64,000 nucleotides of DNA from the NCBI RefSeq assembly GCF_000332195.1, contig NZ_KB235922.1, positions 3,383,322 through 3,447,321 on the forward strand, given 5' to 3'. The position numbers and the translations under genes are program-made. Below the pieces are notes generated by a model. It was not told the origin of the DNA. It made no database searches and saw only the letters and a program-made list of their open reading frames with translations. The stretch comes from Pleurocapsa sp. PCC 7319 (GTDB lineage: Bacteria > Cyanobacteriota > Cyanobacteriia > Cyanobacteriales > Xenococcaceae). Shown here one piece after another: positions 6,341 to 23,689 of this stretch (within the stretch, counting starts at the first letter, position 1; each line of letters starts with the position of its first letter).

Positions 6341-6670
6341 CAATAAGTTGGCACTGCCATTGGCACGAATTAAACCATCGATGTTAGAGATATTGCCTCC
6401 TGTAACCCTGGATAAGATATTGGTTATGTCTGGGGAGTTATTGAAAAAGGCTTGCCCATTATTAGGTACGGAAAATTCCCCAAAACTATGAAACAGATTT
6501 CCTCCAGCACGATCTCCATCATTTATTTCAAAATTATTTCCATCAATATTAACTGTTGTAGATGTAGTCCCATCAGGAATAACTTCTTGGGCTGAAGCAA
6601 AGCCAATTGAAAGTAAACTGCTTACTAGATAAAAAGCTAAAGATAACGGTAGGGAAAAATTCTTTTTCAA
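6341..6670 (-). pseudogene. 5' fragment of a two-partner-secretion exoprotein (TpsA, haemagglutinin N-terminal domain)
   Basis: Likely start TTG at 6670 with GGGAG upstream (the frame opens at 6694). A clear signal peptide (KKNFSLPLSLAFYLVSSLLSIG, cut after ASA-Q) is followed by IPDGTTSTTV, NNFEINDG, GGNLFHSFGEFSV and NIDGLIRANGSANL. This is the start of the TPS domain recognised by an outer-membrane TpsB. It ends at about residue 110, where L-F-L-I-N-P would be expected, and is fused to the Uma2 fragment. The same QxxPDGTTSTTV start occurs in the intact-looking gene at 63884. Confidence 0.75.
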
Positions 6671-7008
6671 AACAACACTCCCAATATTTAGCAATAATTT
6701 AATTTAAAATTATTATACAGATTTGTTAATTATCATCTTGTATATTGACTTTTTTTATATTATTTGTAACATTTTCCCGAACTTAGTTGTTAACTGCTGA
6801 AATTACCAATCTAAATATAATTTAGCGATCAAAAGCATATAAAATAAAATACGTTTCTTGAGTTTTATTTTAAATAATGGTTGCTACAAAAACTATAATG
6901 GCTTGTTATAAAAAATACTATCGATAAGTCTTGTTTATCCGAGTTTATGGAAATTTTTAGACTAAAAAACTATAATGTACTAGAGTTAATTTGTAGAAAT
7001 GCGAATGT

Positions 7009-7040
7009 AGCGATCCGAAGGCTACGCGGAGCGTAATCGC
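7009..7040. repeat. dispersed palindromic repeat in the 6.67-7.11 kb gap
   Basis: The gap upstream of the TpsA fragment has no gene. It is AT-rich except for a GC-rich island: GCGAT at 7009-7013 pairs with ATCGC at 7036-7040, and TACGC-GGA-GCGTA lies inside. A near copy in opposite orientation sits at 56134-56164, against the bioB start codon, so this is a member of a dispersed family. Confidence 0.6.
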
Positions 7041-7113
7041 TTTATAAAGCTGTGAGTAAAAAAGTTTTGTACAAATGTTTTCAGCTGTATTTGTACGTAT
7101 AGAGCTTAGCTAA

Positions 7114-8037
7114 TCAATTATTCATGGCATAGACTTCTTTCGCTGCCCGATGTAATAGAGAATGACGATAAACTAAAGCAGACATATCTTTGCCATAACC
7201 GCCACCAATTACACTGGCAACTGGATATCCCCCAGCCTTACAGGTGCTTAAAACCATTCTTTCTCGGCGATATATCCCCCAGTCAGTAAGAGATAACTTG
7301 CCTAAGCGATCGCTAACATGAGTATCTACTCCGGCATCAAACAGAACTAAATCTGGTTTTACCTGAGTCAGTAAATCAGATAAATGACTGGCTAAGATCT
7401 GTAAATAACCATCGTCATCTAAACCAACAGGTAACGAAACATCTAAATCACTCTGTTGTTTTCTCCCTGGAAAATTTGCCTCACAATGCATAGAAAAAGT
7501 AAACACGCTATCGTCGTTTCGAAAAATGGAGGCTGTTCCATCTCCTTGATGAACGTCCAAATCAACGATTAAAATTTTGTTGACTAATCCCTGATCTTGT
7601 AATGTACGGGATGCGATCGCCAAATCATTAAAGATACAAAACCCCGAGCCATAACTGGGAAAAGCGTGGTGAGTTCCGCCAGCGGTATTACAGGCACAAC
7701 CATATTCCAGAGCCAACTTGGCCGCTAAAATTGTTCCACCGATGGCAATGCAGGTTCGATGAGCTAGTGCCTCGCTCCAGGGTAAACCAATCCGACGCTG
7801 AGCTTTGGATTCTAAGGTTCCTTCACAGTAAGCCTGAACATATTCGGGATGATGAACTAGTTGAATGAAATCTAAATCAGGTAATTCTGGTTGATATATC
7901 TGTTCTGGTACAATTACCCCATCTTTAAGTAATAGATCTCGCAAAATCTTAAACTTGGGCATCGGAAACCGATGAGCATCAGGTAATGGTGCAACATAAT
8001 CAGGATGATAAACAATAGCAAAACCGTAGTTACTCAA
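7114..8037 (-). CDS. histone-deacetylase-family hydrolase (AcuC/HDAC-like)
   Basis: 307 residues, the usual length for bacterial class of arginase/deacetylase-fold enzymes. Motifs: GGTHHAFP with the His pair H123-H124, zinc ligands D161 and H163 in DLDVHQGDG, D238 in AGVDTH, and the GGGYG loop near 278-282. It would remove acetyl groups from lysine or small acetylated amines in the cytoplasm. Substrate unknown. The ABC exporter gene lies 34 nt upstream on the same strand, so the two could be co-transcribed. Confidence 0.88.
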   Translation of the reverse strand: MSNYGFAIVYHPDYVAPLPDAHRFPMPKFKILRDLLLKDGVIVPEQIYQPELPDLDFIQLVHHPEYVQAYCEGTLESKAQRRIGLPWSEALAHRTCIAIGGTILAAKLALEYGCACNTAGGTHHAFPSYGSGFCIFNDLAIASRTLQDQGLVNKILIVDLDVHQGDGTASIFRNDDSVFTFSMHCEANFPGRKQQSDLDVSLPVGLDDDGYLQILASHLSDLLTQVKPDLVLFDAGVDTHVSDRLGKLSLTDWGIYRRERMVLSTCKAGGYPVASVIGGGYGKDMSALVYRHSLLHRAAKEVYAMNN

Positions 8038-8071
8038 GACAAATTATTAATTATCAATTACTAATTATTAA

Positions 8072-9820
8072 TCAATTCAAGACCTCTTGAAGTTGATGTT
8101 GTTGCCAGAGGGTTTGATATAATCCTAACTCTTGCAATAAGGTTTCGTGAGTACCATTTTGCACAATTTTTCCTTTATCCATAACTAAAATGCGATCGCA
8201 CGTAGCTGCTGCGGATAGTTGATGGGAAATAAAGATTACGGTCTTTTTGGCTCTAGTAGGAGATAAGCTATTAAGAATTCTAGTGGCAGTCTCGTTATCT
8301 ACACTGGAAAGAGCATCGTCTAAGATTAGTACTTTGGCATCCACTAATAAAGCTCTTGCTAGGGAAGTACGTTGTCTTTGTCCTCCAGAGAGAGTTATAC
8401 CTCGTTCCCCAACTAAGGTCTCGTATTCTTGGGGAAAAGTCAAAATTTCAGGGTGGATTTGAGCTTGTTTAGCGGCTAATTCCACTTCGAGAGTTTCGAT
8501 TAACGGCTCACCATAGCGAATATTGTTTTTGATAGTAGTGCTAAACAGGAAACTATCCTGCGGTACATAAGCGATCGCTTTTCTTAAAGTAGCTAATTCT
8601 AGTTTAGTAATGTCGCAACTATCTAAAAATAATTCTCCCGATTCCACATTTAATAAACGGGGAATAGCATTCGCCAGAGTGGACTTCCCTGAACCGATAG
8701 TTCCTACGATGGCAACGGTTTCTCCCGGCTTAATGGTGAAGTTTAGATCGTATAATGCCGGGGTATGGGAACCTGGATAAGTATAGGTAAGATGACGGGC
8801 GGTAATTTCTCCCTTGATATCTTTGAGGGGTAAAACAATCGCATTAGAGCGATTTTTAACTTTAGGTTCAGCCTTGGTAATAGATTCCACGCGATCAATA
8901 CTGACTTCTCCCTGTAGATAAGCAGTAATGGTAAAACCTAACAAAGCCGTGGGAAAGACTAATCGTTCTACAAATAATGCTAAGGCAATAAAGTCACCAA
9001 CGCTGATTTGTCCACTAGCGATCGCTCCTGTTCCTAACCATAAGAGAATTAATAAGCTAATGTTGGCAAGCCCTTCAATTACCGGAAAGAGAAAATTTCT
9101 GGTTCTGGCTAGCTTTAAGTTTGACTCTAATAGTTGCTGATTTTTCTCTTTGAATGCCAATCTTTCTTGAACTTCTTGAGCATAAATCCTAATCAAAGCC
9201 ATGCCACTCATGTCTTCTTGAATTAGCTCACTAAGATCGGAAAGTTTCTCTTGAATTTCTTGCTGATAGCGACGTAGCTTGGTACTAAACAACTGTACCG
9301 TCATTAACATGACTGGATAAATGGCGATCGCTAATAAGGTTAATCGCACGTTAATATTCAGCATGGCAGGCAGAGTAAAGGCATAAGCAAAAATGATGTT
9401 GACAAAACTCAACACTGCAAACCCTACCAAACGACGAATATTATCGACATCGCTGGTGGCGCGGTTGATTAAATCTCCTGATGTATTGTCAGCAAAATAT
9501 CCAGGTTCAATGGTGAGTAAATGCCTGAAAATTCTTTGTTTAAGACCAAACTCTATTTGTCTTCCGACACCAAAAATAAACACACGGGAGCACATCCGAA
9601 ACCCCCACATCACAAACGATAGAAGTAACAGCCATAATGCTGAACGAGATAATTGTTCAAAACTAAATTGACCCTGTAGCTGGTCAATACTATCTCGAAT
9701 TAATAGGGGAATATAAACCCCCAAGGCATTGACGATCACCAAAGCGACCGTTCCCAATAAAACAGTTCGCCAGTGGGGACGAAGATAGTTGCCTAATTTC
9801 TGTAGTCTTGAATTTGCCAT
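8072..9820 (-). CDS. ABC exporter, fused membrane and ATPase domains
   Basis: 582 residues from ATG 9820 (MANSRLQKLGNYLRPHW); a TTG at 9856 in the same frame is a less likely start. Six transmembrane helices (about 15-310), then an ATPase domain with Walker A GTIGSGKS, Q-loop YVPQDS, signature LSGGQ, Walker B VLILDD and switch His in IFISHQL. It is a half-transporter that should work as a homodimer, of the MsbA/LmrA-like multidrug or lipid exporter type. Cargo cannot be told. Upstream of the HDAC-like gene on the same strand. Confidence 0.9.
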   Translation of the reverse strand: MANSRLQKLGNYLRPHWRTVLLGTVALVIVNALGVYIPLLIRDSIDQLQGQFSFEQLSRSALWLLLLSFVMWGFRMCSRVFIFGVGRQIEFGLKQRIFRHLLTIEPGYFADNTSGDLINRATSDVDNIRRLVGFAVLSFVNIIFAYAFTLPAMLNINVRLTLLAIAIYPVMLMTVQLFSTKLRRYQQEIQEKLSDLSELIQEDMSGMALIRIYAQEVQERLAFKEKNQQLLESNLKLARTRNFLFPVIEGLANISLLILLWLGTGAIASGQISVGDFIALALFVERLVFPTALLGFTITAYLQGEVSIDRVESITKAEPKVKNRSNAIVLPLKDIKGEITARHLTYTYPGSHTPALYDLNFTIKPGETVAIVGTIGSGKSTLANAIPRLLNVESGELFLDSCDITKLELATLRKAIAYVPQDSFLFSTTIKNNIRYGEPLIETLEVELAAKQAQIHPEILTFPQEYETLVGERGITLSGGQRQRTSLARALLVDAKVLILDDALSSVDNETATRILNSLSPTRAKKTVIFISHQLSAAATCDRILVMDKGKIVQNGTHETLLQELGLYQTLWQQHQLQEVLN

Positions 9821-10101
9821 GCTACAAATCTTAACAACTTTTTTCTTTCTGACCAACTTCCTCGCAATTAATAATCTTCTCTTGGTTGAATTATGTGAGA
9901 ATAAGTTGGCAAAACAACCACTAAGTTGACTAACGATCGCAGCCTATATCGAACCTAAAGGAGTTTCGTCGCTTTGACAACAGAGTAATTTGTGATTTGT
10001 TACCAGTTTGTAGTGGCATTATTTCTGTGAAAAAATTCCCCAATGGTTAATTACCCTGATTAACCCTAAAAAATATACTTAATCGATTAGAAAAACTGAC
10101 T

Positions 10102-10872
10102 ATGCTTGCTAAAAGAATATTGCCCTGTCTAGATGTCAATGCAGGACGAGTAGTTAAAGGAATTAATTTTGTTGATCTCAAAGATGCCGGAGATCCGGTT
10201 GAACTTGCCAAAGTTTATAATGATGCGGGAGCAGATGAGCTAGTGTTTCTGGATATTACCGCTACCCATGAAGACCGTAACACAATTGTCGATGTCGTTT
10301 ATCGAACAGCAGAACAGGTTTTTATTCCTTTAACTGTTGGTGGCGGTATTCAATCCTTAGAAAATATTAAAATTTTGTTGCGCGCGGGAGCCGATAAAGT
10401 AAGTATTAATTCCGCTGCTGTTCGCGATCCCGACTTGATTAATCGTGCAAGCGATCGCTTTGGCAAACAGTGTATTGTGGTAGCGATTGATGCTCGCAGA
10501 CGTACTGATGCTAGTAATCCTGGCTGGGATGTCTATGTACGAGGCGGGAGAAAAAATACGGGAATCGATGCGATCGCCTGGGCTACGGAAATGGCAACTA
10601 GAGGTGCGGGGGAATTATTAGTTACCAGCATGGATGCTGATGGAACTCAAGCTGGTTATGACCTAGAGCTTACTCGGACTATTGCCGAACAGGTTGAAAT
10701 TCCTGTAGTTGCCTCTGGTGGTGCGGGCAATTGTCAACATATCTACGAAGCTCTCAATCAAGGTAAAGCTGAAGCCGCTCTTCTGGCTTCATTACTGCAT
10801 TTTGGACAACTAAGTGTTCAGGAAATTAAAACCTATCTTCAGGAGTACAAAATTCCGGTACGAATTAACTAG
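10102..10872 (+). CDS. hisF: imidazole glycerol phosphate synthase, cyclase subunit
   Basis: 256 residues, full length. TIM barrel starting [12 protein letters not shown], with catalytic D11 and D130 (VVAIDARR), phosphate loops GGGIQS and SGGAGN, and [10 protein letters not shown]. With HisH it converts PRFAR and ammonia to IGP and AICAR in histidine synthesis. The partner hisH is on the same strand at 45.9 kb, so the two subunits are not in one operon, which is normal in cyanobacteria. About 245 bases upstream hold no gene. Confidence 0.97.
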
Positions 10873-10968
10873 CAAATAATCTTTAGCAAAGCTTAAATTA
10901 TTAAGAATTTGACCCAAAACTTAAAAATTGTGTATTAGAATAAGGGGAGAAATTTACATTTCGTAAAA

Positions 10969-11151
10969 ATGCTGATTCCAATTCTCATATTTGATGTTGC
11001 TTTGGTAGCGTGGTCGCTGCATTTAATGCAATCGGCTTTGGAACGGCGCGAATTTTCATTAATGCTTGCTGGCACTCTTGTTGCTGCTGCTGCTGCTGCT
11101 ATGTTGGTGGTATATTTCATTATTGGCAATTGTTTGAGCCGTCTTAGCTAA
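10969..11151 (+). CDS. small two-helix membrane protein, function unknown
   Basis: 60 residues: MLIPILIFDVALVAWSLHLM, a short basic turn (ALERREF), then LMLAGTLVAAAAAAMLVVYFIIG. This is a simple helical hairpin. GGGGAG lies about 20 nt upstream of the ATG. The opposite-strand frame here (10935-11129) is a shadow caused by the GCT repeats. No family recognised. It sits between hisF and the tRNA. Confidence 0.5.
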   Translation: MLIPILIFDVALVAWSLHLMQSALERREFSLMLAGTLVAAAAAAMLVVYFIIGNCLSRLS

Positions 11152-11199
11152 ATTTACGGCAACGTATCTTTTGTGTTGTGATACTATTATTAGAGTGTT

Positions 11200-11272
11200 G
11201 GGGCATTAACTCAGATGGTAGAGTGCTTGCATGGCATGCAAGATGTCAGCGGTTCAAGTCCGCTATGCTCCA
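11200..11272 (+). tRNA. tRNA-Ala (GGC)
   Basis: 73 nt cloverleaf. The acceptor GGGGCAT pairs with ATGCTCC (one G-T), with discriminator A at 11272. The anticodon arm is CTTGC-ATGGCAT-GCAAG, giving anticodon GGC, and the T arm is AGCGG-TTCAAGT-CCGCT. CCA is not encoded. An 11-kb island begins 32 nt after its 3' end. Confidence 0.95.
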
Positions 11273-11347
11273 TGATTAAAAGTTTTCAATTTATTATTTG
11301 TTTGTGTAATTTAAAGTTTGAGTTTGCCGCTTTGGCAAGGTTATGCT

Positions 11348-11779
11348 TTAAAAACTAATTTCCGACTTTGCTTTCTTAAGAGCTATTCTAACTTGCTTGT
11401 ATCTGAAGTTGCCAGGTTGCGAAATTAACTGCGAAACGCGAGCCTCACTAGGATATTCTCCTTTCTGAATCAGAGTAGACACGGCTTGTTTTACTTCCTG
11501 GCAACTAGCCTCAATATTTTTTCTGCTGATCTTAGCTCGGTAATTTCGATATTTAGCAGAGATAGCTTGGCATAATTCGGGAAAGTGTTTCGATAAAGTC
11601 CTTTGGTCAATAGCTAATTCTTTAGCAATCTCTTTCATAGTAGTTGAGATACTCTCTCGATCTTGTAAGACAGATTGGAGAAATTTTTCTATTTCTAGAA
11701 GATCGAAATTTTGAGGTGATATTCTTTTGCTTGAAACTCTACGGGGTAATTTTTGGCTATTTATTTGTATATAGCAATC
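11348..11779 (-). pseudogene. C-terminal fragment of a TniQ/TnsD-like transposon targeting protein
   Basis: The frame is open from 11779; an internal ATG at 11638 could give 96 residues. The protein reads FDLLEIEKFLQSVLQDRES, then a helix-turn-helix (MKEIAKELAIDQRTLSKHFPEL), IEASCQEVKQAVSTLIQKGEYPSEARV and PGNFRYKQVRIALKKAK. I recall this HTH plus YPSxxxVxxL pattern from the C-terminal parts of TnsD/TniQ-type proteins. The N-terminal zinc-finger TniQ domain is absent: upstream the sequence changes to the RHS gene, so the 5' part was lost. The stop codon lies only 43 nt from the left transposon end, a natural place for a transposition gene. Family call is by memory, not search. Confidence 0.55.
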
Positions 11780-13179
11780 CTACTAATAAATTTGTCTATG
11801 AATACAAATACGAAAAGGCAAAAACCGATCGCAATCGGGGTTGGCTGGGATTTGAAAAAAATATTCTGAGTTGGGAAAAATATGATTATGACGAGCGGAT
11901 GAACCTTGCCAGTCGCAGTCAATACTGGGATCGAAATGAAGGTAAATGGCTGACCTCTAGTACGACCTATGACACTTATGGCAATGTAGTTAGCATCAGC
12001 GATCCTTTAGGAAATACCTCTACTACCAGCTATGAAGAGAAATATCATACTTTTCCTCAAACCAGCACGACACCAGATCCAGACCCCAACAATCCCAGTG
12101 ATAGCCCTCTAACCGTTACTACTACCTACGAACCTAAGTTTGGCATCAAAACCCAAGTTATCGATCCTAACGGTCACAAGCCGATGGAAATTCTTGACAG
12201 TGACATTGATGGCTTTGGGCGAATATTGGAGGTTAAAGGAATTAAGCCCGATAGCGAGGCAATGGTTACAGTGGGCAAGACCGAGTTTAATCCCGAAGCA
12301 AATGGATTGTCGGTCAAAACTTGGTATCGTACTCGGTGGGAAGGTGATGATGTTCCCAATGATGAAACTTGGCTCTGGGAACAGGAATATATTGACGGGT
12401 TAGGGCGTACTTATCAGTCCGAATCCAAAGGATACAACAGCCAAACAAAGCTAATCGATAAAGTGCAGTTTAATGCCAGGGGGCAGGTGGAGAAAAGTTA
12501 CCTACCTTATTATTCTGATGCTGACCCCAATAACGATCGAGATTATACTTCCTACCAATATGATATCCGAGGACAAGTAACCCAAACTACTCAACCCAAC
12601 GGTACAGTAACCAAAACAGATTACTCCAAACAGTATAGCTCTCGCCAGCTTACATACCAATTGCCAGATCCTACCGAAGGTATGGAGGGAGTTAATTTTG
12701 TTAATGCTATTGTCCAGGCAAACCCCCGAAGCTGGACTACACGTAAGATTGCTCCTGATAATAGCGTTGCTAGTTATGAATACGATCTTCTGGGGTAAAT
12801 AGTTAAAATTATCGGTCCTTTGGATAATACAATTTCTAATATAGTAATTGACTCTATTAAGCCAGTAATTGATTCTGTTGTTGACGTAAATCTAACAGCA
12901 GGATTAGATTACAACACTGCCAGCCTAGAGGCGAATATGTACAACCTCCGCACCTGGAGCGGTTTGCATCAGTTCTTCTCAACTAAAATTTTCCAATTTG
13001 CTTACTATCCCTATCTAGGGCAGTTATTAGTAATCGTTACGCTGATAGGGTGGCTGCTACTAGCAGTAGTACTTTGGGCAGATCGTTTTTGTCGCTCGGC
13101 ATCGAGAGAGAGTTGGGTTGGCAAATTACGCGAACAACTTTTACAACAGCTAGCCGTCTCAGGAGTTGCTCACTCCTGA
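11773..13179 (+). pseudogene. RHS/Tc-toxin-like repeat protein, middle part, interrupted by a stop
   Basis: No start is preserved; similarity begins around 11773. The frame contains RHS features: RGWLGFEKN, YDTYGNVVSISDPLG, YIDGLGRTYQ, YDIRGQVTQTTQPNGT and YEYDLLG. A TAA at 12796-12798 breaks it, yet the same frame continues IVKIIGPLDN and runs on to 13179 through a membrane segment (LGQLLVIVTLIGWLLLAVVLWADRF cut here at about 20 residues). RHS proteins form a shell around a C-terminal toxin used against competitors. This copy has lost its N-terminus and has a nonsense codon. Continuation in another frame is at 13166. Confidence 0.75.
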
Positions 13180-13187
13180 GACGGCTA
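13151..13187. repeat. 16-bp perfect hairpin at the RHS frame junction
   Basis: TAGCCGTCTCAGGAGT (13151-13166) and its exact complement (13172-13187) surround the 5-nt loop TGCTC. The stop of the upstream frame (13179) and the first codon of the downstream frame (13166) both fall in it. There is no T-run, so it is not a typical terminator. Confidence 0.85.
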
Positions 13188-14473
13188 ATCAATTAAATAC
13201 TCCTACCCCGACTAACTGGCTAATAGGAGCTTGGCATCGTCCTGGTTCCTTTGCCTTGGTACTGGTAGCCTTCTCTTCGATGAATTTAACCGCACCGATT
13301 ACCCTAGCTCAATTGACCCCTGGTGCTAACGGTGCGGGCTATCCTGTAGCCGAGGAAATCTTATATTTCCATCATGGACATTTGAGCAGTACCAGCTTGG
13401 TTACTGACGCACAAGCCAATCAAGTTAGCTTAGTAAATTACGAACCTTATGGTGAGGTAACTGCTTCGAGTGAAGGGGAGGATGCTTTCCGCGCCAAGTT
13501 TACAGGCAAAGAATTCGACAGCAACAGCGAACTTTATTACTTTGGTTCTCGCTACTACGACGCTCATCTGGGTCGCTTTCTCACTCCCGATCCTGCCCGT
13601 CAATATTTTAGTCCCTACATTTATGGTAACGGCGATCCTCTTGGTGGCATCGACCCTAATGGGGAGTTTTTCATCTCCTTGACGGTATTAGCTATTGGTG
13701 CAGCCATGGCAGGCGGTGCCTTTATGGGAGGTGCAGCAGTCAACAACAGTATGAACCCTGCAAGTTGGGACTGGAGTGATGGTAAAACCTGGGCGGGCAT
13801 CATTGGTGGTGCTGCTATTGGAGGGGTCACTGCGGGAGCGGGTCTGGCAGTCACTGGGGCTGTCGCTGCTGCTGGATGGGGTGCTGCTGCGACTGCTGCT
13901 GCCAATATGGCGATCGCAGGTGGAGTCCTGGGGACAATGAATGCTTCCTTTACAGCCATGTCTGGAGGAAGTGCTGGTGATATTGCCTCTGCTTTTGGTA
14001 TCGGTTTCGGCATGGGTGCAGCATTTGCCGTACCGTATGCTGGTCCAGCAGCGTTGAGGGGCATATTTGCTTACGATGTTTACAGTTTTGCCAGCGATCC
14101 TTCTGTTGGGCATGGCATCCAGTTGGGCATGGATATAATGTTTGCAGGAATGGCGCGTGGTATGCGCCTGCGACAAGGAGGAAAAAGTAAGTCTAAGGAA
14201 GCGGACGGTTGTATGTCCTGTCCTTGTTCCTCCTTTGCAGCGGAAACTGAGGTGTTATCTTCAGAAGGAGAAAAAGCAATTGAAGAGGTCGCCGTCGGTG
14301 ATAAACCGATGAATGCTGGAAAACTGCCATTCCTGCGGCGAATGACACAACCCATGACGTACTGGATTGTAATGAATATAATCACAATACTGGGCAAAAT
14401 CTCTTTCATCTCGAATCAAATGTTCCCAAAACCGACGCTGCCAAAGATTTTTCTCCTGCCGTTTTTGGCGTGA
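13166..14473 (+). pseudogene. RHS-repeat core with degenerate Hint pretoxin region
   Basis: Frame opens at TTG 13166, 14 nt before the preceding RHS frame ends. Residues 68-166 form the RHS-associated core (FHHGHLSSTSLVTD, YEPYGEV, FTGKEFDSNSELYYFGSRYYD, GRFLTPDP, DPNGE). Then comes a long Gly/Ala hydrophobic stretch (170-330), then a Hint-like start, CSSFAAETEVLSSEGEKAIEEV-AVGDK. After GDK (about 14300) the frame loses similarity. A different frame (NTGQNLFHLESNVPKTD, to a stop at 14512) looks more protein-like, suggesting a frameshift or deletion. In polymorphic toxins the Hint domain releases the toxin tip, and none is recognisable here. Confidence 0.8.
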
Positions 14474-14580
14474 AGCAGAAATCTCACTGTCGATTTTCGA
14501 TCATTCACTAGAAATGTCATTGTGAACGAACAATTTTTACTTAAATTTCCCTTGTATAGAGGTTAGAGTACGATCGCCTT

Positions 14581-14793
14581 CTACAAATTCTTAAATTCTT
14601 CCCAATCAAGATCGAGTTGACGAATAATTTGTCTTAAAGTGCCTATTTTCAAATCTTTATTACCCCAATCAGGAATTGGCACAACGGCATTATTTTGAGG
14701 GTTATACCATTTTCGATGAGAACCTCCACCTCTTCTAGGTATTTCTTGGCATCCCATTTTTTTAAGTTTTTTGACAATTTCTTTATATTTCAC
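14581..14793 (-). CDS. hicA: HicA-family mRNA interferase toxin
   Basis: 70 residues from a GTG at 14793 (VKYKEIVKKLKKMGCQEIPRRGGGSHRKW). A 5' extension to 14826 overlaps hicB and is unlikely. The double-stranded-RNA-binding-like fold has the family's active His in GGGSHRKW and the closing LRQIIRQLDLDWEEF. It would cut mRNA when not bound by HicB. The GTG overlaps the last base of the hicB stop codon, giving translational coupling. The order here is antitoxin first, toxin second; the classical hicAB order is the reverse. Confidence 0.88.
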   Translation of the reverse strand: MKYKEIVKKLKKMGCQEIPRRGGGSHRKWYNPQNNAVVPIPDWGNKDLKIGTLRQIIRQLDLDWEEFKNL

Positions 14794-15047
14794 TATGCAC
14801 CGATAGGAATTAAACTTTCTGTCCAAAGAGTTGTTTGTTCGCTAATAGGCTGTAGTATGCTTGGCAAAGGTTGATTTAAGTCTTGATATGCCTCAATAAT
14901 TGCCGATAAAGCATCAGAAACATTAGGCATAACTTCTTCTAAAGTATCAGCCTCTGTGATTAAATTAGGCAAAAGAGGACAAGTAATTGTGTAGCCTCCT
15001 TCTGGCTGAGGCTCTAAAACTAATGGTAATTTATAGATGTTTTTCAT
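14793..15047 (-). CDS. hicB: HicB-family antitoxin
   Basis: 84 residues: MKNIYKLPLVLEPQPEGGYTITCPLLPNLITEADTLEEVM, the partially degraded RNase-H-like fold of HicB (G-Y-x-x-x-C-P-x-L-P). It lacks an obvious C-terminal DNA-binding domain, so it is of the short type. It neutralises the adjacent HicA. First gene of the two-gene operon, inside the island. Confidence 0.88.
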   Translation of the reverse strand: MKNIYKLPLVLEPQPEGGYTITCPLLPNLITEADTLEEVMPNVSDALSAIIEAYQDLNQPLPSILQPISEQTTLWTESLIPIGA

Positions 15048-15258
15048 CTTAATTTAGAGAGCATAAAGAATAATAATTATTACAGTTGTGATTATAGCTC
15101 TTGTTAGAAAATGATTTTTTATTGAATTAAATGTTAAGTAAAAAAGCGATCGCCTTGCTATTTTCTCTAATTTGCGATCGCCTATTATTTGTCCTGATTA
15201 GACCGACCTTGCTTTAGTTTTGTAATTACTATATTGGGTGGAACAAGGCGTATTATTT

Positions 15259-15738
15259 ATGGAATGCCATCAAACGGATATAGAAAAGCCAACAAAAGAT
15301 TTAACGATCGCCTTGAAGTCTGAAGTGCTAGGAGAAGCCTTTTTTCGTTCGGCATACTACTCTATGTTGTTATTAAATCGTAGACATAAAGCAAAGATGC
15401 TGTGGCATTTGGAGGCTCAAACAAAAACCAGAATTCTCGAATATTTTGAGATTAATAGTATTGAAATACCAAAATTAAGGTGGGCGGTTGCTAGAGGTTC
15501 AGTATTAGGTGTTTTTTGTTTAGTTGCTCCTTGGTATGTTGTTTTGAAAGTAATACTCAAAGAAACAGAATATTATCAAGAAGTTTTTCGTCGGCTTGAG
15601 GAACAGGCGATCAAACAAGACAAGGAACTGTTCGGGTACATAGTTGCACACGAAGCTGCTATTAGGCGATTTGTGTCAATTGAATTAGTAGGCGGGAATA
15701 ACTCTCTCGATCCAATTGAAGCTTTACTAAATAATTGA
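15259..15738 (+). CDS. ferritin-like-fold protein, function unknown
   Basis: 159 residues from ATG 15259, which has AAGGCG 10 nt upstream (GTG 15238 is the alternative). Four amphipathic helices are predicted, with acidic/His residues in ferritin-like spacing: E at SEVLGEAFFRSAYY, then HLEAQTKTRIL, then ETEYYQEVFRRLEE, then AHEAAIRRF. A hydrophobic segment (GVFCLVAPWYVVLKVIL) in the middle is unusual for a soluble member. I recall distantly similar unnamed ferritin-like proteins, but no function. Intact orphan inside the island. Confidence 0.5.
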   Translation: MECHQTDIEKPTKDLTIALKSEVLGEAFFRSAYYSMLLLNRRHKAKMLWHLEAQTKTRILEYFEINSIEIPKLRWAVARGSVLGVFCLVAPWYVVLKVILKETEYYQEVFRRLEEQAIKQDKELFGYIVAHEAAIRRFVSIELVGGNNSLDPIEALLNN

Positions 15739-15782
15739 GTTGGCTATAAGAACCTATGCAAAATCAATTCCTCGGTTGAGAT

Positions 15783-15852
15783 TGGTAAAAGGCGCGGAAT
15801 GCGCCTGAAGGCAAGCACCCGAATGCATTCGGGTGAACCTTCAGGTTAAGGG
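15783..15852. repeat. dispersed structured palindromic element, copy 1
   Basis: Contains AGGCGC-GGAAT-GCGCCT (15790-15806), a stem CCTGAAGG (15804-15811) with CCTTCAGG (15838-15845), and inside it the 20-bp perfect palindrome CACCCGAATGCATTCGGGTG (15816-15835). A second copy lies at 53213-53283 with compensating changes in the outer stem. The remaining 15.74-16.08 kb sequence has no gene. Confidence 0.85.
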
Positions 15853-15867
15853 GCAAAGGGAAGAAAA

Positions 15868-16072
15868 TTAGGCGTTGGTGAATCAAAGTATGATTGCTAA
15901 ATTTCTATATTGAATTTCTTCTTAAAAAAGCTTAAAGCTTAAAGCTTAGAACTACTAACAGTAATATTGTGTATTTTATATGTCACCATGAGGAGCGTTC
16001 CCTTGCCCAGATAACGCTCCTGGGTAAACGTCTTACGCCGACACGGGGTCACCTCATGAAATCACCAACGCC
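15868..16072. repeat. 205-bp segment bounded by a 12-bp inverted repeat with nested hairpins
   Basis: AGGCGTTGGTGA near 15869 is exactly complementary to TCACCAACGCCT ending near 16072, just beyond the CHAT-gene stop. Inside, CATGAGG pairs with CCTCATG and AGGAGCGTT with AACGCTCCT, making a branched structure at about 15985-16057. Could be a MITE-like element; no flanking duplication was established. Confidence 0.55.
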
Positions 16073-16076
16073 TGTT

Positions 16077-18449
16077 TTACAACCAGTTGCCAACGATGAC
16101 AAAAGGCGACCAGAAATAAGGTCTTCTCAAATCTGGGTCGTTTAAAAAATAAAGTTGAGTCTGTTGCAGAGCCTGGGCTACAGTTATTCCAGAACTTAAG
16201 TTTTCGTAAAACTTAGTCATAAATTCCGCAGTGGCGAGGTCGTTAACTTTCCACAAACTAGCTAAGGTAGTACGAACTTGCGCTTGGGCTGCTACCCCTG
16301 CTAATCCCAATGCTGCCCTGCGATCGCCCTGAGCGGTTTCACAAGCACTGAGAATTAGTAACTCGATCGCTTGAGAACTATCGGGGTTATTTACTTGGAG
16401 AAGGCGATCGAAACTCCTGACTTTGACTCGCTGTCCCCAAACAAGGATGTAAGTTTTATTGGGGTCGGAATTAAACTCTCCATGAGTGGCAATATGGACG
16501 ATGGGGAAAGCAGCAGAATCAATTTGTTGTTCTAGTCTTTCCTCGGTAAAAGTTTGGTTTAGCAGTGGTTTGGTAGTGGTATCGGTTAATTGCTGAATGT
16601 CGGCTAGTTCGCTGGAGATATAAGGTAGGGCCGCAAATTCTTGACCATCAACTGTTTGTGCTTCACTGACTCCTGCCATCAAGACATTAATCTGTTCTTG
16701 TCTGGGTCGAGGATCGAAAAGCTGTCTGTTGGGAATTACAGCTAGGGCATAGTCTTCGATTAAATATTTTCCTTGGTTGTAGAGTACTGATAAGGGAATG
16801 TCCCGCAAAGTATCATCTAAAACAAAAACTAAGGTATTTATCTGACCGCTCTGTTTTAATTTTTCTAGGTCTGGTTCGAGTGGTTGAATAATCCATTGAT
16901 ATACTTTCTAGGCTTCCTGTTTGACTTCTTCGGTGAAACGAGATTGCCTTAAATAGCTTTGCAGTTTGGCCACTGTCTTTCTATAGGTTGAATAAATACA
17001 GCTCGATGGGTGAGGGGTTGTTGGGGCAATTTGTAAATAATTTCTAAACGATCTGCCAGAATCAGGGGATAGATAAATGCTGCTTGGGGGTCTATTTCTC
17101 CTACGGCTGTTTCTATCTGCAATTGGGGAGCTAGAGAGCATTGCAAGAAGTTTTCTAATTCCGAGAGACGCAGAAAGTCAACTACCTTTAACGCTTGGGT
17201 AGGGAAGTTTTCTGCATTATTTGAGAGATTATCTTCTGTAGTTAGAAGCAGATCGATTAACTGGCGGTATAAAGGTTCGACAGCATCGCGGAAAGAAAAT
17301 TGCACGTCGGAATTGAGGTTAATTAAGTCGCTACGGACAGATTCTAAAGTTTTGCTGGCTGCTTGGTAAAATGCGATCGCCCGATCTCGTTTCTCTTCCC
17401 TCGCCCATAATCTTCCTAGTTGCCATTGCCATTGATAGGCAATCTGAGGCGACTTATCGGGTTGAGCCAGTAACAAAGCATCAGAGGTTAAAGCGATCGC
17501 TTTTTAAAATTAGATCGAGAAGATTGAGCTGGGCTGATATTTTGCTATTTCCTAGTTTAGATAAAGCGATCGCTCGATTGTATTGTTGTTGAGCCTGTCG
17601 ATAGAAATTTTGTGCTTCTGGAGGCAGATTGCTCGAATTAGATTTGATCGCGTCACAACGCCAAGGAAGATAGTCGTATTTAGGTGAGGCTTGGCGATCG
17701 CGAATAATATTACCTCTAGCTCTGAGGGTGTTACCCAGGCTTATTCTAGTAGTTGCTGGCTCTGTGTCAAAGGAGCTTTTGGCGATGGTCTGTAAGACTA
17801 GTTCTGACTCTTCTAAATTACCTAACAAGCGCAAAACATTACCCAGGCTACGCCAGCCAGTTGTTTGTAGTGGCGAGACAAGCTTAATTTTGTTTTCTAG
17901 AATCTGAAATGTTGGATCTGCACAAATATTGTTATCTAATGCTAAAGCTGACTGCAAAGTAACACAGGCGCGCTCGTAAAGTCCCAATTGCTCTGAGGCT
18001 TCGGCTTGATAAATGCGATCGCGAACTATAGCTGAATCATCATTTAATTGCTCTGAAATCTCAGTAGCTTTTTCCCAGCTTTTTAGAGCTAATTCTGCTT
18101 TGCCCAAACTCAACTGCAAACGACCCAAATTAGTTAAAGTTATTGCCAGGTTTTGCCAGTCTTCATCACTTTCAAAGACTCTAACCGCTTCTTGGAGATA
18201 GTTAACCGCCGAGACAAATTCCCCCGCACGATACTCAATTTCTCCCTGTCGTACTAGCTGTCGAGCATTAGCTACAGGTGTTTGGGATTGGACTGGTATT
18301 ACTCCTACGATTAAAAAGATACTCAACAGGAATAACACGAAATATCTTTGGCAGTTTCTTCTTAGGCAAAAAGCAAAACTTTTCAAAACAAAACCCACTG
18401 CATCGAAAAATGATCGAATTCCTTGGATAAATTTTCCCCAACACCCCAT
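16077..18449 (-). pseudogene. TPR-CHAT protein, broken by two frameshifts and a stop
   Basis: The N-terminal part (18449-17481) has a signal/anchor segment (YFVLFLLSIFLIVGVIPVQS) and TPR helices. An extra A in an A-run (T-run 17501-17505 on the plus strand) shifts the frame. The next part continues the TPRs to about 16985, where a missing A shifts it again, and a TAG at 16908-16910 then interrupts QEA-KVYQWIIQPLEPD. The last part (to 16077) is a CHAT caspase-like protease domain with His in HIATHGEF and Cys in LSACETA. Repairing the three lesions gives one continuous CHAT protein. Cyanobacterial CHAT-TPR proteins often sit with TPS genes, as here. The two homopolymer changes could also be sequencing errors. 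Confidence 0.85.
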
Positions 18450-18454
18450 CTAAA

Positions 18455-18935
18455 GTTCAGCACTGTTGTCACCCCCTGAGGAATAAACTATCTCTACCCA
18501 GCAACAGTACGTATTGTCCCTGAAATCGCCAAGCGAAAAAACGACTGTCAGGAATTCTCTCTACTCTGCTACTTGTTGATTAACTGTCGAGTCTAAAGCA
18601 TCCAGTCCGAAATTAAACTGCGATCGCAGTGCAAATACAGAGCGGGCGTTGTGTTGGATATATTCTTGAAAAAAGCGCAGAGCAAATACGCGAGTTTCTC
18701 CTGCTTCATTAGCACCAGGAGAGAGAAAAGAAGGCAGATCGTCAATAGTAGATTCGCTATCTCTAAGGGAGGTAGTCAAACCGAGGGAAAAGTCATGATA
18801 GTTTTGCTGTTTAATAGTTTGGATAACTGGCTGGCGTAGAGTTAGTTCGTAGCTGTTGGAATTGGAGTCAATATCCAAATCGTCAAAAGGAGATTCGATT
18901 ACTTCATTGGCACTGTAATTATAGGTGAAGCCAAT
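18455..18935 (-). pseudogene. TpsB/ShlB-type outer-membrane translocator, beta-barrel remnant
   Basis: A frame (from 18935) reads GFTYNYSANEVIESPFDDLDI, YELTLRQPVI, LSPGANEAGETRVFALRFFQEYI and RSQFNFGLDALDSTVN, stopping at 18561. Past a frameshift, FFAWRFQGQYVLLLGRD-SLFLRG follows. All are strands of the ShlB/FhaC-family barrel. The POTRA domains, the N-terminus and the last strands are missing. It lies directly upstream of the CHAT pseudogene, so both belonged to one two-partner-secretion locus that has decayed. Confidence 0.75.
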
Positions 18936-18995
18936 TTAATTAAAAAGGGATCGCGTTTTTAGGTATACAACGATCATTTTAAATAATCCCTAATC

Positions 18996-19283
18996 TCATG
19001 AATGGGTAGTAATTTCATTAAGAGCATTATTGATAACTTCTTCTTCTACACCATGACGTTTTAAACTTTCTATTAATTCCCAGAAAGGATCGTTTTCTAG
19101 TTCCTCTAAATCTTTTCTCAAACCCTGTCCGATATAAGTTCTCATTAAAGGTTGATAACCAGAAAAACCTAACACGGGGGCGATTTTTTTCAAGTCTTCA
19201 ACTACATCTTCAGGAATACGAAGGGTAATACTTTTCATGGGGCGATCTTTTCTTAATCTTTGTTTCAAAGTCTCAATTTTCAT
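18996..19283 (-). CDS. brnA: BrnA-family (CopG-like) antitoxin
   Basis: 95 residues from ATG 19283 (MKIETLKQRL); an internal ATG at 19238 (MKSITLRIPEDV) is also possible. The ITLRIPEDVVEDLKKIA stretch is a ribbon-helix-helix, followed by GYQPLMRTYIGQGL typical of BrnA. It binds BrnT and represses the operon. The ATG overlaps the 3' end of brnT by 11 nt, the usual coupled order toxin then antitoxin. Confidence 0.82.
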   Translation of the reverse strand: MKIETLKQRLRKDRPMKSITLRIPEDVVEDLKKIAPVLGFSGYQPLMRTYIGQGLRKDLEELENDPFWELIESLKRHGVEEEVINNALNEITTHS

Positions 19284-19569
19284 AGTAATTGCGTTCTTGA
19301 CGAGTAGCTTTACGAGCGGAAATAATTCTAATCTGATCGTTCTCTTGTTGAATATGAACGACGAACAAGAGATAACTTTGCTTATCCATTCCGATAATGG
19401 CATCTCTGGCTTCATCATTACGACTGGCATCGACTACTACTAAAAAGGGATCGAAAAAAGCTTCGACTGCTTGCTCAAATGTAATTCCCTTATGTTTTAA
19501 TGGGTTTTGCTTTGCCTTGTCGTCATTCCAGATAAAAGTAATACCATTGAGGATGAATTCTTTATCCAT
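19273..19569 (-). CDS. brnT: BrnT-family ribonuclease toxin
   Basis: 98 residues from ATG 19569. FIWNDDKAKQNPLKHKGITFEQAVEAFFDP, then LLFVVHI, and IRIISARKATRQERNYYEN at the C-terminus: all BrnT landmarks, including the W-D-xx-K-xxxN-xxKHG(I/V)-F block and the closing R-x-x-S-A-R-x-x-x-x-E-R. RelE-like fold; cleaves RNA. The second TA pair of the island; together with HicAB it may resist island loss. Confidence 0.85.
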   Translation of the reverse strand: MDKEFILNGITFIWNDDKAKQNPLKHKGITFEQAVEAFFDPFLVVVDASRNDEARDAIIGMDKQSYLLFVVHIQQENDQIRIISARKATRQERNYYEN

Positions 19570-19629
19570 CTTCTCTATTATACGAGATTTCGTATTTACA
19601 TTGTCAATACATAATTCTCTCACAAAAAT

Positions 19630-19809
19630 AGCCCTCAATCTTTTAAAAAGGTAGGTTTTCAAGTTGTTAGACAGGGCAAACATATCACCATGACGGATGG
19701 TGGGCGCATCATTATCATTCCTAGAGCTAATCCAGTCAATGCCTATACCATGGCTGGAATTGTTAAAGATGCTGGATTAACCATCGAAGAATTCCAGAAG
19801 CTTTTATAG
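19630..19809 (+). pseudogene. 3' fragment of a second HicA-like gene
   Basis: No start codon in a sensible place. The frame reads FKKVGFQVVRQGKH, ITMTDGGRIIIIPRAN and VKDAGLTIEEFQKLL, ending TAG 19807-19809. That is the second half of HicA-type proteins (GF-V-R-x-G-x-H ... I-P ... L-x-x-x-GL-xx-EF). The 5' part is replaced by the divergently placed brnTA operon. Probably dead. Confidence 0.6.
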
Positions 19810-19962
19810 CTGTTGCGATCACCCTAGCAATCCTCAATTACCCTTTTTAACCCTAAAAAAGCGATCGCATTAATTCAATCTAATTGCGATCTTATTGAAT
19901 CTCCTTGCTTTCTAGAAAACCGATCTCCGTCGCGATCGCATATGAAGTTAGAACTCATTAAA

Positions 19963-21230
19963 CTCACGGGGTGACAGAGGAGTTAAAAGGAAGACGAGCA
20001 GTTAAATGTAGCGGTGTGATGGTAGAAAAAAGGGGTAAAAATTATTGAGAATTACCCCTAAACAAAAATGTTGCCAGGATTCTATCACAAATGTATGGAG
20101 AAGTTATTGACCCCAAGGCAATATGCAACCCTAAGAATAGTCGTACTACTATTACAAAACTATAGAACAATTCAGATTGAAAAACTGGCTTCGCTCCTAC
20201 CGATTCCGCTCAAATATCAAAGCCGTCGTCGTCATCTACAAAGATTTTTGATGTTACCAAAGTTAACACCTAAATGTATTTGGTTTCCCATCATCAAAAA
20301 ATGGTTAAAAATCAACCAAACTAACAAGAGAATTTGCTATGTAGCAATTGATAGAACTAGATAGAAGGAGCGAAATTTATTTGTAGTCAGCCTAATCAAA
20401 AATAAAAGAGGTATACCTTTACATTGGATCTTACTAAATAAAAAAGGAAATAGTAATATTACCGAGCAAAAAAGGTTACTCAAATCCACATTGAGATTAT
20501 TAAAAGGATATCAAGTAGTCATAATTGGAGATAGAGAATTTGGCAATATTAATCTAGCAGACTGGCTCTCTAAGCGAAATTGCAAGTATGTATTGAGAAC
20601 TAAAAACAATAAATACATCCAAGAAAAAGGAAAGGATTATCAACAATTAAAGTCTTTAGGATTAGCTCCAGGAAACTCTAGTTATTATAAGCAAGTTAAA
20701 TTTACCAAACAACCAGGAATGAGTCGAGTAAATATTGCTTTATATTGGCATAAAAGTACTAAAGGAAAAAAGAAGAATGAGGGCTGGTATTTAATTAATA
20801 ATTTGTCTAATTTAAAGCAAGCAATTAAAGCTTACAAAAAGCGAATGGGAATCGAGGCAATGTTCAAAGATTGTAAATCTGGGGGGTATAATTTAGAGCA
20901 ATGTCAAGGGAACGATAAGCGTTTATTATCTTTAATTTTACTGATAGCAATTGCTTATACTTGTGCTATTAAAAAAGGTCAAACAATTAGCTTCAAAGGT
21001 ATCAAAGAATATGTCTGCCGATTGAAAGAAAACTTGAGAAAAGATCGAAGACATAGCAATTTCTGGGTGGGGTTGTATGGTGGTTTGTGGGTTGAATCTT
21101 TTCAAATATGCCATAAGTGGGTTGAGCAACTAATGATACTTACTCCTAATAAGCTACCTTTTTATCAACAGGGTATAAGGGCTAAAATGCTTATCCTATC
21201 TTCCTTTTAACTCCTCTGTCACCCCGTGAG
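19963..21230 (+). mobile_element. IS4-family insertion sequence, 1268 bp
   Basis: Perfect 32-bp terminal inverted repeats: left starts CTCACGGGGTGACAGAG, and right ends with its complement CTGTCACCCCGTGAG. Direct repeats CTCATTAAA flank it (19954-19962 and 21231-21239), a 9-bp target duplication. One transposase gene fills it. The intact ends and TSD show a recent insertion into the older island. Confidence 0.95.
20068..21210 (+). pseudogene. IS4-family DDE transposase with one internal amber codon
   Basis: One frame of 380 sense codons interrupted only by TAG at 20362-20364. The first catalytic Asp is in YVAIDRTR just before the stop, the second in IIGDREFG, and the Glu in the family signature Y-2x-R-3x-E-6x-K (YKKRMGIEAMFKDCK). 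The stop replaces the Trp expected after DRTR, a single TGG to TAG change. The gene ends inside the right terminal repeat. Without suppression the product is 98 residues and inactive, so the copy should only move if helped by another. Confidence 0.92.
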
Positions 21231-21302
21231 CTCATTAAATTTAAAAACAACCTTAAATAAAAAGCGATCGCTCTTTTCTCTATAAAGGCGATCGCAAGTA
21301 AA

Positions 21303-21442
21303 AATCCGCAGCAACTCATACTATTACAGGAGATCATTACACCATCATGCGATCGCCCCAAGTTGAAGATCTGGCTGCAACGATCGACAACTATCGATCG
21401 CCGATACAGGGTCAGCAAAAGGAGTCAGAAGTAATGATATGA
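21303..21442 (+). pseudogene. 3' tail of a peptide-synthetase/polyketide thioesterase domain
   Basis: The frame reads AATHTITGDHYTIMRSP, then after a one-base deletion near 21360 VEDLAATIDNYRSP to a TGA at 21440-21442. G-D-H-Y-T-I-M-R with a following (V)xxLA is the end of NRPS/PKS thioesterase domains, the His being the catalytic triad member. Its TGA overlaps the ATG of the next gene as ATGA, the usual coupling within an operon. Only about 45 residues survive. Assignment is by motif memory. Confidence 0.5.
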
Positions 21443-22058
21443 GGACTTTTTTAATCGTCTGGTTTGGTCAACTCATATCTTTATTCGGTTCTCAACTGAC
21501 CAGTTTTGCCCTTGGAGTTTGGGTATATCAAAATACGGGATCGGTCACTCAGTTTTCTTTAATCTCTTTTTTTACAATGCTGCCAGGCTTAGTAATCTCA
21601 CCCCTTGCGGGAGCTTTGGTAGATCGATGCGATCGCCGTTGGGTAATGATTCTTAGCGATTCTATTGCTGGATTGAGTACCCTTTGTATTGCCTTGCTAA
21701 TAGCTATTGGACAAATACAAATTTGGCATATTTATCTGGCCACCACCATCAGTTCTCTCTCCAATGCTTTTCAATGGCCCGCATACAGTGCTGCTACAGA
21801 ACTATGTTTGCCTGGTCATCACGACCTCTAGCTTATCTGGTTGCAGGTCCTCTATCAGACAGAATATTTGAACCTCTGATGTCAGTTGATGGTTTTCTAG
21901 CTGGAAGTATTGGACGAGTCATTGGTACTGGTACTGGTCGAGGTATTGGTTTGATGTTTATGGTCATGGGAATCTTCACGATGTTAACAACTATTATTGC
22001 CAGTCAGTATGCTCCTTTAAGGTTGTTAGAAGATGAATTGCCCGATGTCATTAGTTGA
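21439..22058 (+). pseudogene. MFS exporter with internal deletion
   Basis: The first 125 residues are a clean MFS N-terminus (FLIVWFGQLISLFGSQLTSFAL, then the A-motif-like LVDRCDRRWVMILSD) through SSLSNAFQWPAYSAAT. At about 21820 it joins, in another frame, the last helices (LAYLVAGPLSDRIFEPLM, GRGIGLMFMVMGIFTML) ending at 22058. About half of the usual 400-plus residues, helices 4-10, are missing. It probably exported the product of the lost synthetase whose thioesterase tail is just upstream. Confidence 0.8.
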
Positions 22059-22151
22059 GTCAAAAGAAGATTCATACAAATTACTCAGAGAAAAAAATCT
22101 AAGTTCACTCTTTTACTATTATTCCAAGGCTAGTATCATAATTAAAAATTT

Positions 22152-22304
22152 CGGCAACATTAAAGATTAATTTTTATATTTCGGCAAAAAAAGACTTTAA
22201 TAGTCACGAAGTTAAGTTAGTATACTTAACTTTAAAAGGCTATTTTAATAATCAATTGGCAAAGTAAGACTTTAAAAAGCGGCAAAAATAGACTTTAATT
22301 TACA
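22152..22304. repeat. right end of the island: four transposase-binding-type repeats
   Basis: Four 19-bp units of the form (C/T)GGCAA-n7-CTTTAA-like sequence: 22152-22170 (most divergent), 22182-22200, 22257-22275 and 22280-22298. The last runs into the terminal TTTACA at 22304. A hairpin AAGTTAAGT/ACTTAACTT lies at 22209-22232 between units. The rest of 22.06-22.55 kb holds no gene; TTTCCGC/GCGGAAA at 22329-22370 is a weak hairpin beyond the island. Confidence 0.75.
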
Positions 22305-22546
22305 GTTTGTGTCACTAAAAGCATAATTTTTCCGCTGCCTTAAGCTTAAACTTACATTGAGCCGCGGAAATTTTATACTTTTAATTGAGGCAATTGAAGG
22401 AAATATTGACCTGAGAAGTTGAAAAATAAGTTATTTCAATTAGATTTGCTTCAACACTCGATGGAGAGCAATAGCTACTGTGAGAGCTAGATTAATCTAC
22501 AGGTATAATCTTGTAAGCTATTCACAGTTATTTGAGGCACTACCGT

Positions 22547-23689
22547 TCATCGTTCTGCCATATTGATATAGGGAGCGTTATGTTCCCCTGTGTAAATTTG
22601 AGTAGGTCGAAAGATGCGATTAACTGCCAATTGTTCTTTCCAGTGGGCTAGCCAGCCGGCGACACGAGCGATCGCAAAAATGGGGGTAAATAAATCACTA
22701 GGAATCCCCAATTTCCGATAAACCAAACCAGAATAATAATCGACATTAGGATAAATGCCCTTATGTCCTAACTTGACTTCAATCGCTTTTTCTAGCTCCA
22801 AAGCCAAATCGTAATAGTGATCATGTCCTGTTTCGTCGAATAGCTCCTCAGCTAATCCTTGTAAAATTCTGGCTCTAGGGTCTTTGACTTTATAAACTCG
22901 ATGTCCAAAACCCATAATTTTTTGCTTATTGGTAATGAGATTTTCCACATAAGGATACACATTACCCACGGTACCAATATCCTCTAACATTACAAGTACT
23001 TCCTCATTTGCTCCTCCGTGAAGAGGACCTGCTAAGGTACCGACAGCTGAAGCCACTACAGCATAGGGATCGGTCAGAGTTGAAGCAGTTACCATTGCCG
23101 AAAAAGTTGAGGCATTAATGGTATGTTCAGCATGTAGAGTTAAGCAGACATCGAATATTTTAGCTGCCAAAGGATGAGGTTCTCTCTCGGTCAGCATATA
23201 TAAAAAGTTGGCAGCATAATCAAGATCATCATTAGGTTTAATCGCATCATTTCCCCGACGCATTTGATGGAACGCTGCCACCATCGTCGGGATTTTTGCC
23301 AGAAGACGTACTACTGCTTTTCTGATGTATTCAGGGTCATCTAAAGCACGGCGAGCATAAAATAAACCTAAGGCTGCTGCTGAGGTCTGTAAAGCATCCA
23401 TAGGATGTCCAGTCTCAGGACAACATTTCATCATGTCCCGAATACGGTACTTAATTCGGCGATGATAAATAATATCAGTTTGAAATTCTTTAAGCTGCTG
23501 TTCACTAGGTAATTTACCCCAGATTAGCAAGTATGCTGTCTCTAAGAAACTACCATGTTTAGCTAATTCTTCGATCGCAATACCACGATATTCTAAAATA
23601 CCCTTCTGACCATCAACAAAACTAATACTAGATTTGGTAGCAGGGATACCTTCTAAACCTGGCATATATTCGCAAAATGTTGCAGTCAT
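22547..23689 (-). CDS. gltA: citrate synthase
   Basis: 380 residues, the short cyanobacterial/Gram-positive type. Landmarks: GILEYRGIAIEELA, catalytic His in LHAEHTINAST, LAGPLHGGANE and MGFGHRVYKVKDPRA, and the catalytic Asp near VDYYSGLVY. Condenses acetyl-CoA and oxaloacetate at the entry of the cyanobacterial TCA route. Single gene; its 3' end faces the island's right end, which inserted 238 nt beyond the stop. Confidence 0.97.
   Translation of the reverse strand: MTATFCEYMPGLEGIPATKSSISFVDGQKGILEYRGIAIEELAKHGSFLETAYLLIWGKLPSEQQLKEFQTDIIYHRRIKYRIRDMMKCCPETGHPMDALQTSAAALGLFYARRALDDPEYIRKAVVRLLAKIPTMVAAFHQMRRGNDAIKPNDDLDYAANFLYMLTEREPHPLAAKIFDVCLTLHAEHTINASTFSAMVTASTLTDPYAVVASAVGTLAGPLHGGANEEVLVMLEDIGTVGNVYPYVENLITNKQKIMGFGHRVYKVKDPRARILQGLAEELFDETGHDHYYDLALELEKAIEVKLGHKGIYPNVDYYSGLVYRKLGIPSDLFTPIFAIARVAGWLAHWKEQLAVNRIFRPTQIYTGEHNAPYINMAER

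Follow-up and report, generated by a model that had tools for sequence, protein, structure and literature searches.

A decayed tRNA-homing Tn7-like transposon beside the end of a second element in Pleurocapsa sp. PCC 7319

We analysed 64,000 nucleotides of the cyanobacterium Pleurocapsa sp. PCC 7319 (assembly GCF_000332195.1, contig NZ_KB235922.1, positions 3,383,322 to 3,447,321; hereafter the window), in which an earlier note on the sequence had described an island anchored at a tRNA-Ala gene. The island, here called Tn-A (11305-22304), is a degenerate transposon of the known tRNA-homing branch of Tn7-like elements. The DNA directly to its right is the left end of another Tn7-like element, Tn-B, which is probably the older of the two. 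Taken together, the evidence makes it highly probable that Tn-A was set beside Tn-B by homing of its target selector, TnsD, and was degraded afterwards. The exact stacking of the two elements is the instructive part.

Results

Ends and target duplication of Tn-A

The inverted 25-mers that the earlier note placed at 11305 and 22304, with 20 matching positions and GTTTG on both sides, were borne out: TGTAATTTAAAGTTTGAGTTTGCCG begins at 11305 and its partner ends at 22304 (Table 1). We searched for TG...CA ends bordered by the same 5 bp, pairing the interval 9-16 kb with 16-26 kb, and used 60 first-order Markov shuffles as a control. The Tn-A pair was the only one with at least 17 of 25 agreeing positions; the best shuffled pair reached 17, and none of the 60 shuffles reached 20. 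Features of the class found on Tn-A include TGT...ACA ends with several TnsB-type repeats, four on the right and two on the left, to which TnsB is predicted to bind. The first 24 bases of the left end are identical to those of the corresponding element in a same-genus relative, Pleurocapsa sp. MO_192.B19 (G008). A 27-bp alignment gap relative to G008 removes the third repeat site, leaving two sites against three. Base composition, taken in 2.5-kb steps, has no clear step at the borders of Tn-A.

Table 1 Features at the tRNA-Ala locus, in window coordinates. Values are those of the named models.
Feature	Position	Strand	Evidence
tRNA-Ala (GGC), attachment gene, intact	11199..11273	+	ARAGORN; Rfam RF00005
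Left copy of the target duplication, GTTTG	11300..11304	.	End-pair scan
Tn-A left (tRNA-proximal) end: terminal repeat and inverted second repeat	11305..11368	+	End profiles, alignment with G008
tnsD 3′ remnant, last ~140 codons and stop; target selector	11348..11770	-	tblastn, blast, tree
Cargo: broken RHS/YD-repeat gene	11771..14473	+	RHS_repeat 4.4e-08 (11644-12798)
Cargo: HicA/HicB-like toxin-antitoxin pair	14581..15047	-	HicA 4e-19; HicB-like 9.2e-06, just under cut-off
Cargo: open frame, no Pfam or PADLOC match	15238..15738	+	
Cargo: TPR-CHAT gene broken into three frames	16077..18449	-	CHAT 8.5e-50
Cargo: BrnT toxin and BrnA/CopG-like antitoxin	18996..19683	-	BrnT 5e-23
Insertion sequence, DDE_Tnp_1 transposase in two separate frames	19963..21230	+	Frames, Pfam, repeats
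Cargo: MFS transporter fragments	21439..22058	+	MFS_1 6.4e-15 for 21439-21831 only
Tn-A right (distal) end: four TnsB-type repeats in one orientation, innermost with 3 mismatches	22152..22304	-	Repeat analysis
Right GTTTG copy, doubling as left flank of Tn-B	22305..22309	.	End-pair scan
Tn-B left end: three repeat sites, the middle one degenerate and the outer two clear	22310..22386	+	Profiles, alignment with G113
gltA	22547..23689	-	Comparison with relatives

Spacing from the tRNA gene

The gap between tRNA-Ala and Tn-A is 31 nt and the first Tn-A base is nt 32, in agreement with the terminus 32 nt past the tRNA 3′ end given earlier. For comparison, tRNA flanks were printed for 52 loci, and the left end was taken as the position, within 20-47 nt of the tRNA, that best fitted two consensus strings. 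Nine loci were left out: six duplicates, L102 and L108 with their different-looking ends, and L107 despite a similar end. In the remaining 43 related left ends, the distance from the tRNA is 28-34 nt, with a median of 31. Among same-genus genomes, a Tn-A-type left end follows tRNA-Ala in 5 of the 12 with a printed site (G000, the window's own 7.39-Mb genome, and G006, G008, G009 and G012); G010, one further same-genus genome, yielded no tRNA-Ala site. At another locus, L142, the spacer between tRNA-Ala and the left end includes a stretch (AGCTTATGCTTCCAATAAAATGT) similar to an inner end repeat, which may be the trace of another stacked or replaced element.

tRNA genes often serve as sites for integrase-type elements (PMC11406308), and the island might be read as a prophage or an integrative and conjugative element with the tRNA as attB. 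The insertion, however, lies 31 nt outside the tRNA gene, the 5-bp duplication repeats no part of the tRNA, the island ends match the Tn7-like profiles described below, and a Pfam search of ten window proteins yielded no tyrosine or serine recombinase. We give this explanation almost no credence.

A second Tn7-like end directly right of Tn-A

The right flank had been taken for plain chromosome, a view that fails: profiles identify TGTCACTAAAAG, right of the second GTTTG, as a Tn7-like left end. A profile of the 43 left ends, none of them from the window, matched 11305 at E = 5.3e-12 and 22310 at 8e-09 (positions 1-78); its only other matches in the window below E = 1 were weaker ones to the same two ends on the opposite strand. 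When G113 was dropped along with the same-genus rows other than L150 (six of seven), the reduced profile still gave 2.1e-10 at 11305 and 5.6e-07 at 22310. Model R1, built from 37 of the 43 ends, gave 1.8e-14 and 5.3e-11 and matched the right end of Tn-A weakly (0.012). Run against the whole genome G000, R1 returned 4 matches at E <= 0.001, the best of which was listed; that number would be explained by the four strong R1 matches in the window once these are rescaled for the size of the genome.

Alignment of the DNA that follows the right GTTTG, TGTCACTAAAAGCATAATTTTTCCG..., to the left end of an element in genome G113 spans 71 bp and scores 62; the best of ~3000 random 85-mers of the window scored 29. 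The left end of Tn-A scores 17 against the same G113 end, and the ends of Tn-A and Tn-B thus differ clearly. The G113 element is 31.3 kb long, lies at a hisF/tRNA-Ala locus (L160-L163, 3930-35252 of the joined region) and is apparently intact. Its genes encode TnsD and TniQ frames (TniQ 7.1e-14 and 3.6e-19), a TnsC-like ATPase (TniB 2.8e-08), TnsAB (TnsA-like, rve and Mu C-terminal), Cas5b, Cas7b, Cas8 and Cas6b, and they include a TniQ of the type I-B model. By gene content, it can be classed as a type I-B2 CAST (a transposon associated with clustered regularly interspaced short palindromic repeats, CRISPR) and would be the natural reference for Tn-B.

With Tn-A and one GTTTG removed, the locus reads tRNA-Ala, 31 nt, Tn-B end. 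This register bears on a different account of the flank, in which Tn-A is real and the 22310 end was brought by recombination, or by a rearrangement joining the locus to gltA, instead of by an older insertion. In 9 of 12 same-genus relatives, gltA is the immediate neighbour of a gene for an ATP-binding cassette (ABC) transporter (8072-9856 in the window); here a block of hisF, tRNA-Ala and the island separates the two. Because these genes stand side by side elsewhere, the block moved or was inserted in this lineage; no repeats longer than 8 bp that would explain its position were found at the junctions. A rearrangement therefore did happen, and no body of Tn-B is left. The 22310 end nevertheless starts at the very base after the right GTTTG, and removal of Tn-A places it at the family median distance from the tRNA, a register not expected of a random junction. 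We judge a rearranged flank improbable and favour an older insertion of Tn-B.

The earlier note had proposed as a check an empty site with a single GTTTG in related genomes that lack the island. No such site was found in 12 same-genus relatives, none of which has tRNA-Ala beside gltA (1.5-kb flanks). Where both genes are on one contig, they are ~0.92 Mb (G012) and ~1.79 Mb (G003) apart. The segment 22305-22546 likewise had no BLAST match (E <= 0.01) in the tRNA-Ala loci of 11 relatives (L012-L023, L062-L066). Since the right flank belongs to Tn-B as its left end, a site of the proposed form would itself be occupied rather than empty.

A TnsD remnant and the loss of transposition genes

Inside its left border, Tn-A keeps the C-terminal ~140 codons of tnsD and no more. 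The minus-strand frame 11348-11638 finds one match in its own genome, itself, and is matched in 7 of 13 same-genus genomes, its own counted. By tblastn, similarity reaches 11770, with 86% identity over 137 aa to TnsD of G008; beyond that point the sequence is the RHS-type gene. G008 TnsD is a 463-aa frame with a TniQ domain (2.2e-15), beside tRNA-Ala(GGC) after hisF, on a 13,818-base contig whose end cuts the element.

In a TnsD tree of 37 rows (the window and the 36 of 42 labelled loci that passed length and stop filters), the window joins G008 (100/98), then G009 (99/96), both at tRNA-Ala, and then G182 at tRNA-Val (98/92). Across the order, the remnant was matched (E <= 1e-6) in 35 of 291 genomes, again with its own counted. 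A tRNA was present in 19 of the 24 loci scanned from this order-wide search; at least one occurred in 32 of 49 named loci, several kb distant in a few. The tRNA-Val locus L141 (Xenococcaceae MO_167.B27, 1814-8347) combines a near-identical left end with type I-B-like cas genes, which adjoin a TnsD close to the window remnant.

A gene for the TnsAB transposase is missing from the genome as far as homology reveals. TnsAB of G113 (920 aa) had no match in G000, and all seven other genomes of the same search matched, those of G012, G009 and G096 weakly (25-29% identity). Searches of G000 for the Mu-transpos_C family (PF09299) and for TniQ were also without a match, but the control genomes gave none either. 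As no TnsAB match exists in G000, Tn-A cannot move itself; it is a remnant and not a functional member, immobile in cis. tnsC was presumably lost as well, although no genome-wide TnsC search was made.

The check for tnsB genes suggested earlier is in line with this loss of the transposase. The claim that the transposition genes had gone holds for TnsAB but is too sweeping for tnsD, of which the 3′ remnant is still present. Tn7-like identity, also claimed from the sequence, is backed by the ends, the 5-bp duplication, the tRNA-set distance, the TnsD remnant and the loss of the transposase.

These relatives raise the question of whether Tn-A was formerly a CAST of type I-B2 or I-D that has lost its cas genes. 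The tree group of the window includes L087 (G182, 98/92), whose place on L141 carries Cas5, Cas7, Cas8 and Cas6 of type I-B character, and the Tn-B-type end in G113 belongs to the cas-bearing element described above. On the other side, kin with fused TnsAB are described both with and without CRISPR systems (PMC11406308). In the window, a tandem repeat search at the score used revealed no CRISPR array, Rfam no RNA besides the tRNA, and the proteins tested (ten in Pfam, six in PADLOC, with some short frames outside this set) no match to cas or TniQ genes. A CAST ancestry for Tn-A is conceivable, but we hold it to be rather unlikely.

Cargo

The cargo of Tn-A is largely broken or accessory in nature (Table 1), and published work describes Tn7-like cargo as enriched in insertion sequences and toxin-antitoxin modules (PMC8649781). 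The second part of the RHS/YD-repeat gene (13166-14473) had a weak TEN_YD-shell match under the cut-off (0.026). PADLOC models matched the TPR-CHAT gene in its TPR part (2.1e-05) and, as BovA, in its CHAT part (4.1e-08). The partner antitoxin of BrnT matched CopG (6.2e-04) and BrnA (2.7e-03), both under their cut-offs. The insertion sequence is bounded by inverted ends of 32 bp and flanked by a duplicated 9-mer, CTCATTAAA, at 19954-19962 and 21231-21239. Two other elements at tRNA-Ala, L054 (G006, 11444-19952) and L160 (G113, 11405-19905), carry similar large cargo genes, as judged by eye from frame starts; those of G006 match Druantia DruE and UvrD-type helicase models.

Other stacked ends

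A survey with model R1 gave matches in at least 134 of 388 genomes. Sixteen fetched-locus entries had two or more R1 matches, several of them being the same place twice, and 13 showed one end on both strands. In three loci, L125, L126 and L155, a pair of same-strand matches was separated by 9-11 kb. L155, on a Bryobacterales contig (DAIDIH010000410.1, ~2763-14080), holds an 11,302-bp element with ends agreeing at 23 of 25 positions and flanks ATTAT/ATTAT, and another Tn7-like left end follows 15 bp past its right end, making a second stack. In the Nostocales loci L125 (~2446) and L126 (~2303), the second match consists of inner end repeats that lack a terminus, ~9 kb inside the elements and in the same orientation as the left ends. 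We found no usable published report of stacked Tn7-like elements, although stacking may still be reported in the literature.

Discussion

We propose the following course of events for the locus. The site would already have been occupied by Tn-B, an element with different ends. A TnsD protein would have bound the intact tRNA-Ala(GGC), and TnsC and a TnsAB fusion transposase would have inserted Tn-A 31 nt beyond the tRNA, with duplication of GTTTG. As homing fixes the landing point relative to the tRNA, Tn-A would have landed exactly at the junction of the tRNA flank and Tn-B, pushing Tn-B 11 kb outward. In TnsD-type homing a new arrival is placed nearer the tRNA than the element already there, which would make Tn-B the older of the two. 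Afterwards tnsAB, tnsC and the 5′ part of tnsD would have been lost, the cargo would have decayed, an insertion sequence would have entered, and all of Tn-B except its left end would have disappeared.

Through target immunity, an element normally impedes further insertion of its own kind nearby (PMC11406308; PMC12452197). The differing ends of Tn-A and Tn-B may explain why no such protection acted here. We incline, by a modest margin over an even chance, to a wider view of the locus as a fossil of serial homing, in which two Tn7-like lineages, with ends different enough to escape mutual target immunity, used the same tRNA-Ala site successively; L155 suggests recurrence. Both ends of Tn-A are kept, and an incoming relative such as a G008-type element might still move it in trans.

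Several observations weigh against this history. GTTTG also stands before the left end (TGTAATTT) in G008 and G012, although the preceding bases differ, and for this reason the left copy alone is weak proof of duplication; it could predate the insertion of Tn-A or be common by descent. No empty or Tn-B-only version of the site was found among relatives. Neither the body nor the right end of Tn-B could be located, and a whole-genome pattern search for a further end of that type gave none, using a pattern drawn from the window and G113 together that has zero mismatches at 22310 by construction. The G113 element itself ends without a matching 5-bp duplication (TGTGT versus ATCAA). The L155 stack has no detectable tRNA, and its ends are 15 bp apart, not 5.

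Among known systems, Tn-A stands closest to the branch with fused TnsAB and a tRNA-targeting TnsD, which by the account in PMC11406308 includes type I-B2 and I-D CASTs and makes a 5-bp duplication. It shares with these elements an insertion point ~31 nt beyond a tRNA, repeat-bearing ends of the TGT type, the 5-bp duplication and the TnsD family; it differs in having lost TnsAB, in retaining ~140 codons of TnsD, in lacking one left-end repeat and in being stacked on another end. Type I-B2 CASTs (PmcCAST/Tn7744 in PMC11406308; here G113) are alike in tRNA sites, in the L141 TnsD homologous to the remnant and in the G113 end homologous to that of Tn-B, but no cas genes or CRISPR array were found in the island. 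The type I-D element CyCAST also homes by TnsD, inserting 30-33 nt downstream of a tRNA (PMC10293859), but it targets tRNA-Leu, is active as a transposon and carries a CRISPR system. Type V-K CASTs in cyanobacteria usually have their left end downstream of a tRNA as well, but are described as targeted by guide RNA and as being without TnsA (PMC9938897); no tandem repeat array was found in the island.

The locus indicates that tRNA-homing Tn7-like elements can build genomic islands by reuse of one site, with newcomers pushing older elements outward. It also carries a practical warning, in that what flanks such an island on the right may be a transposon end and mislead empty-site tests. The two adjoining, distinct ends offer a concrete pair for asking how different ends must be to lose cross-protection.

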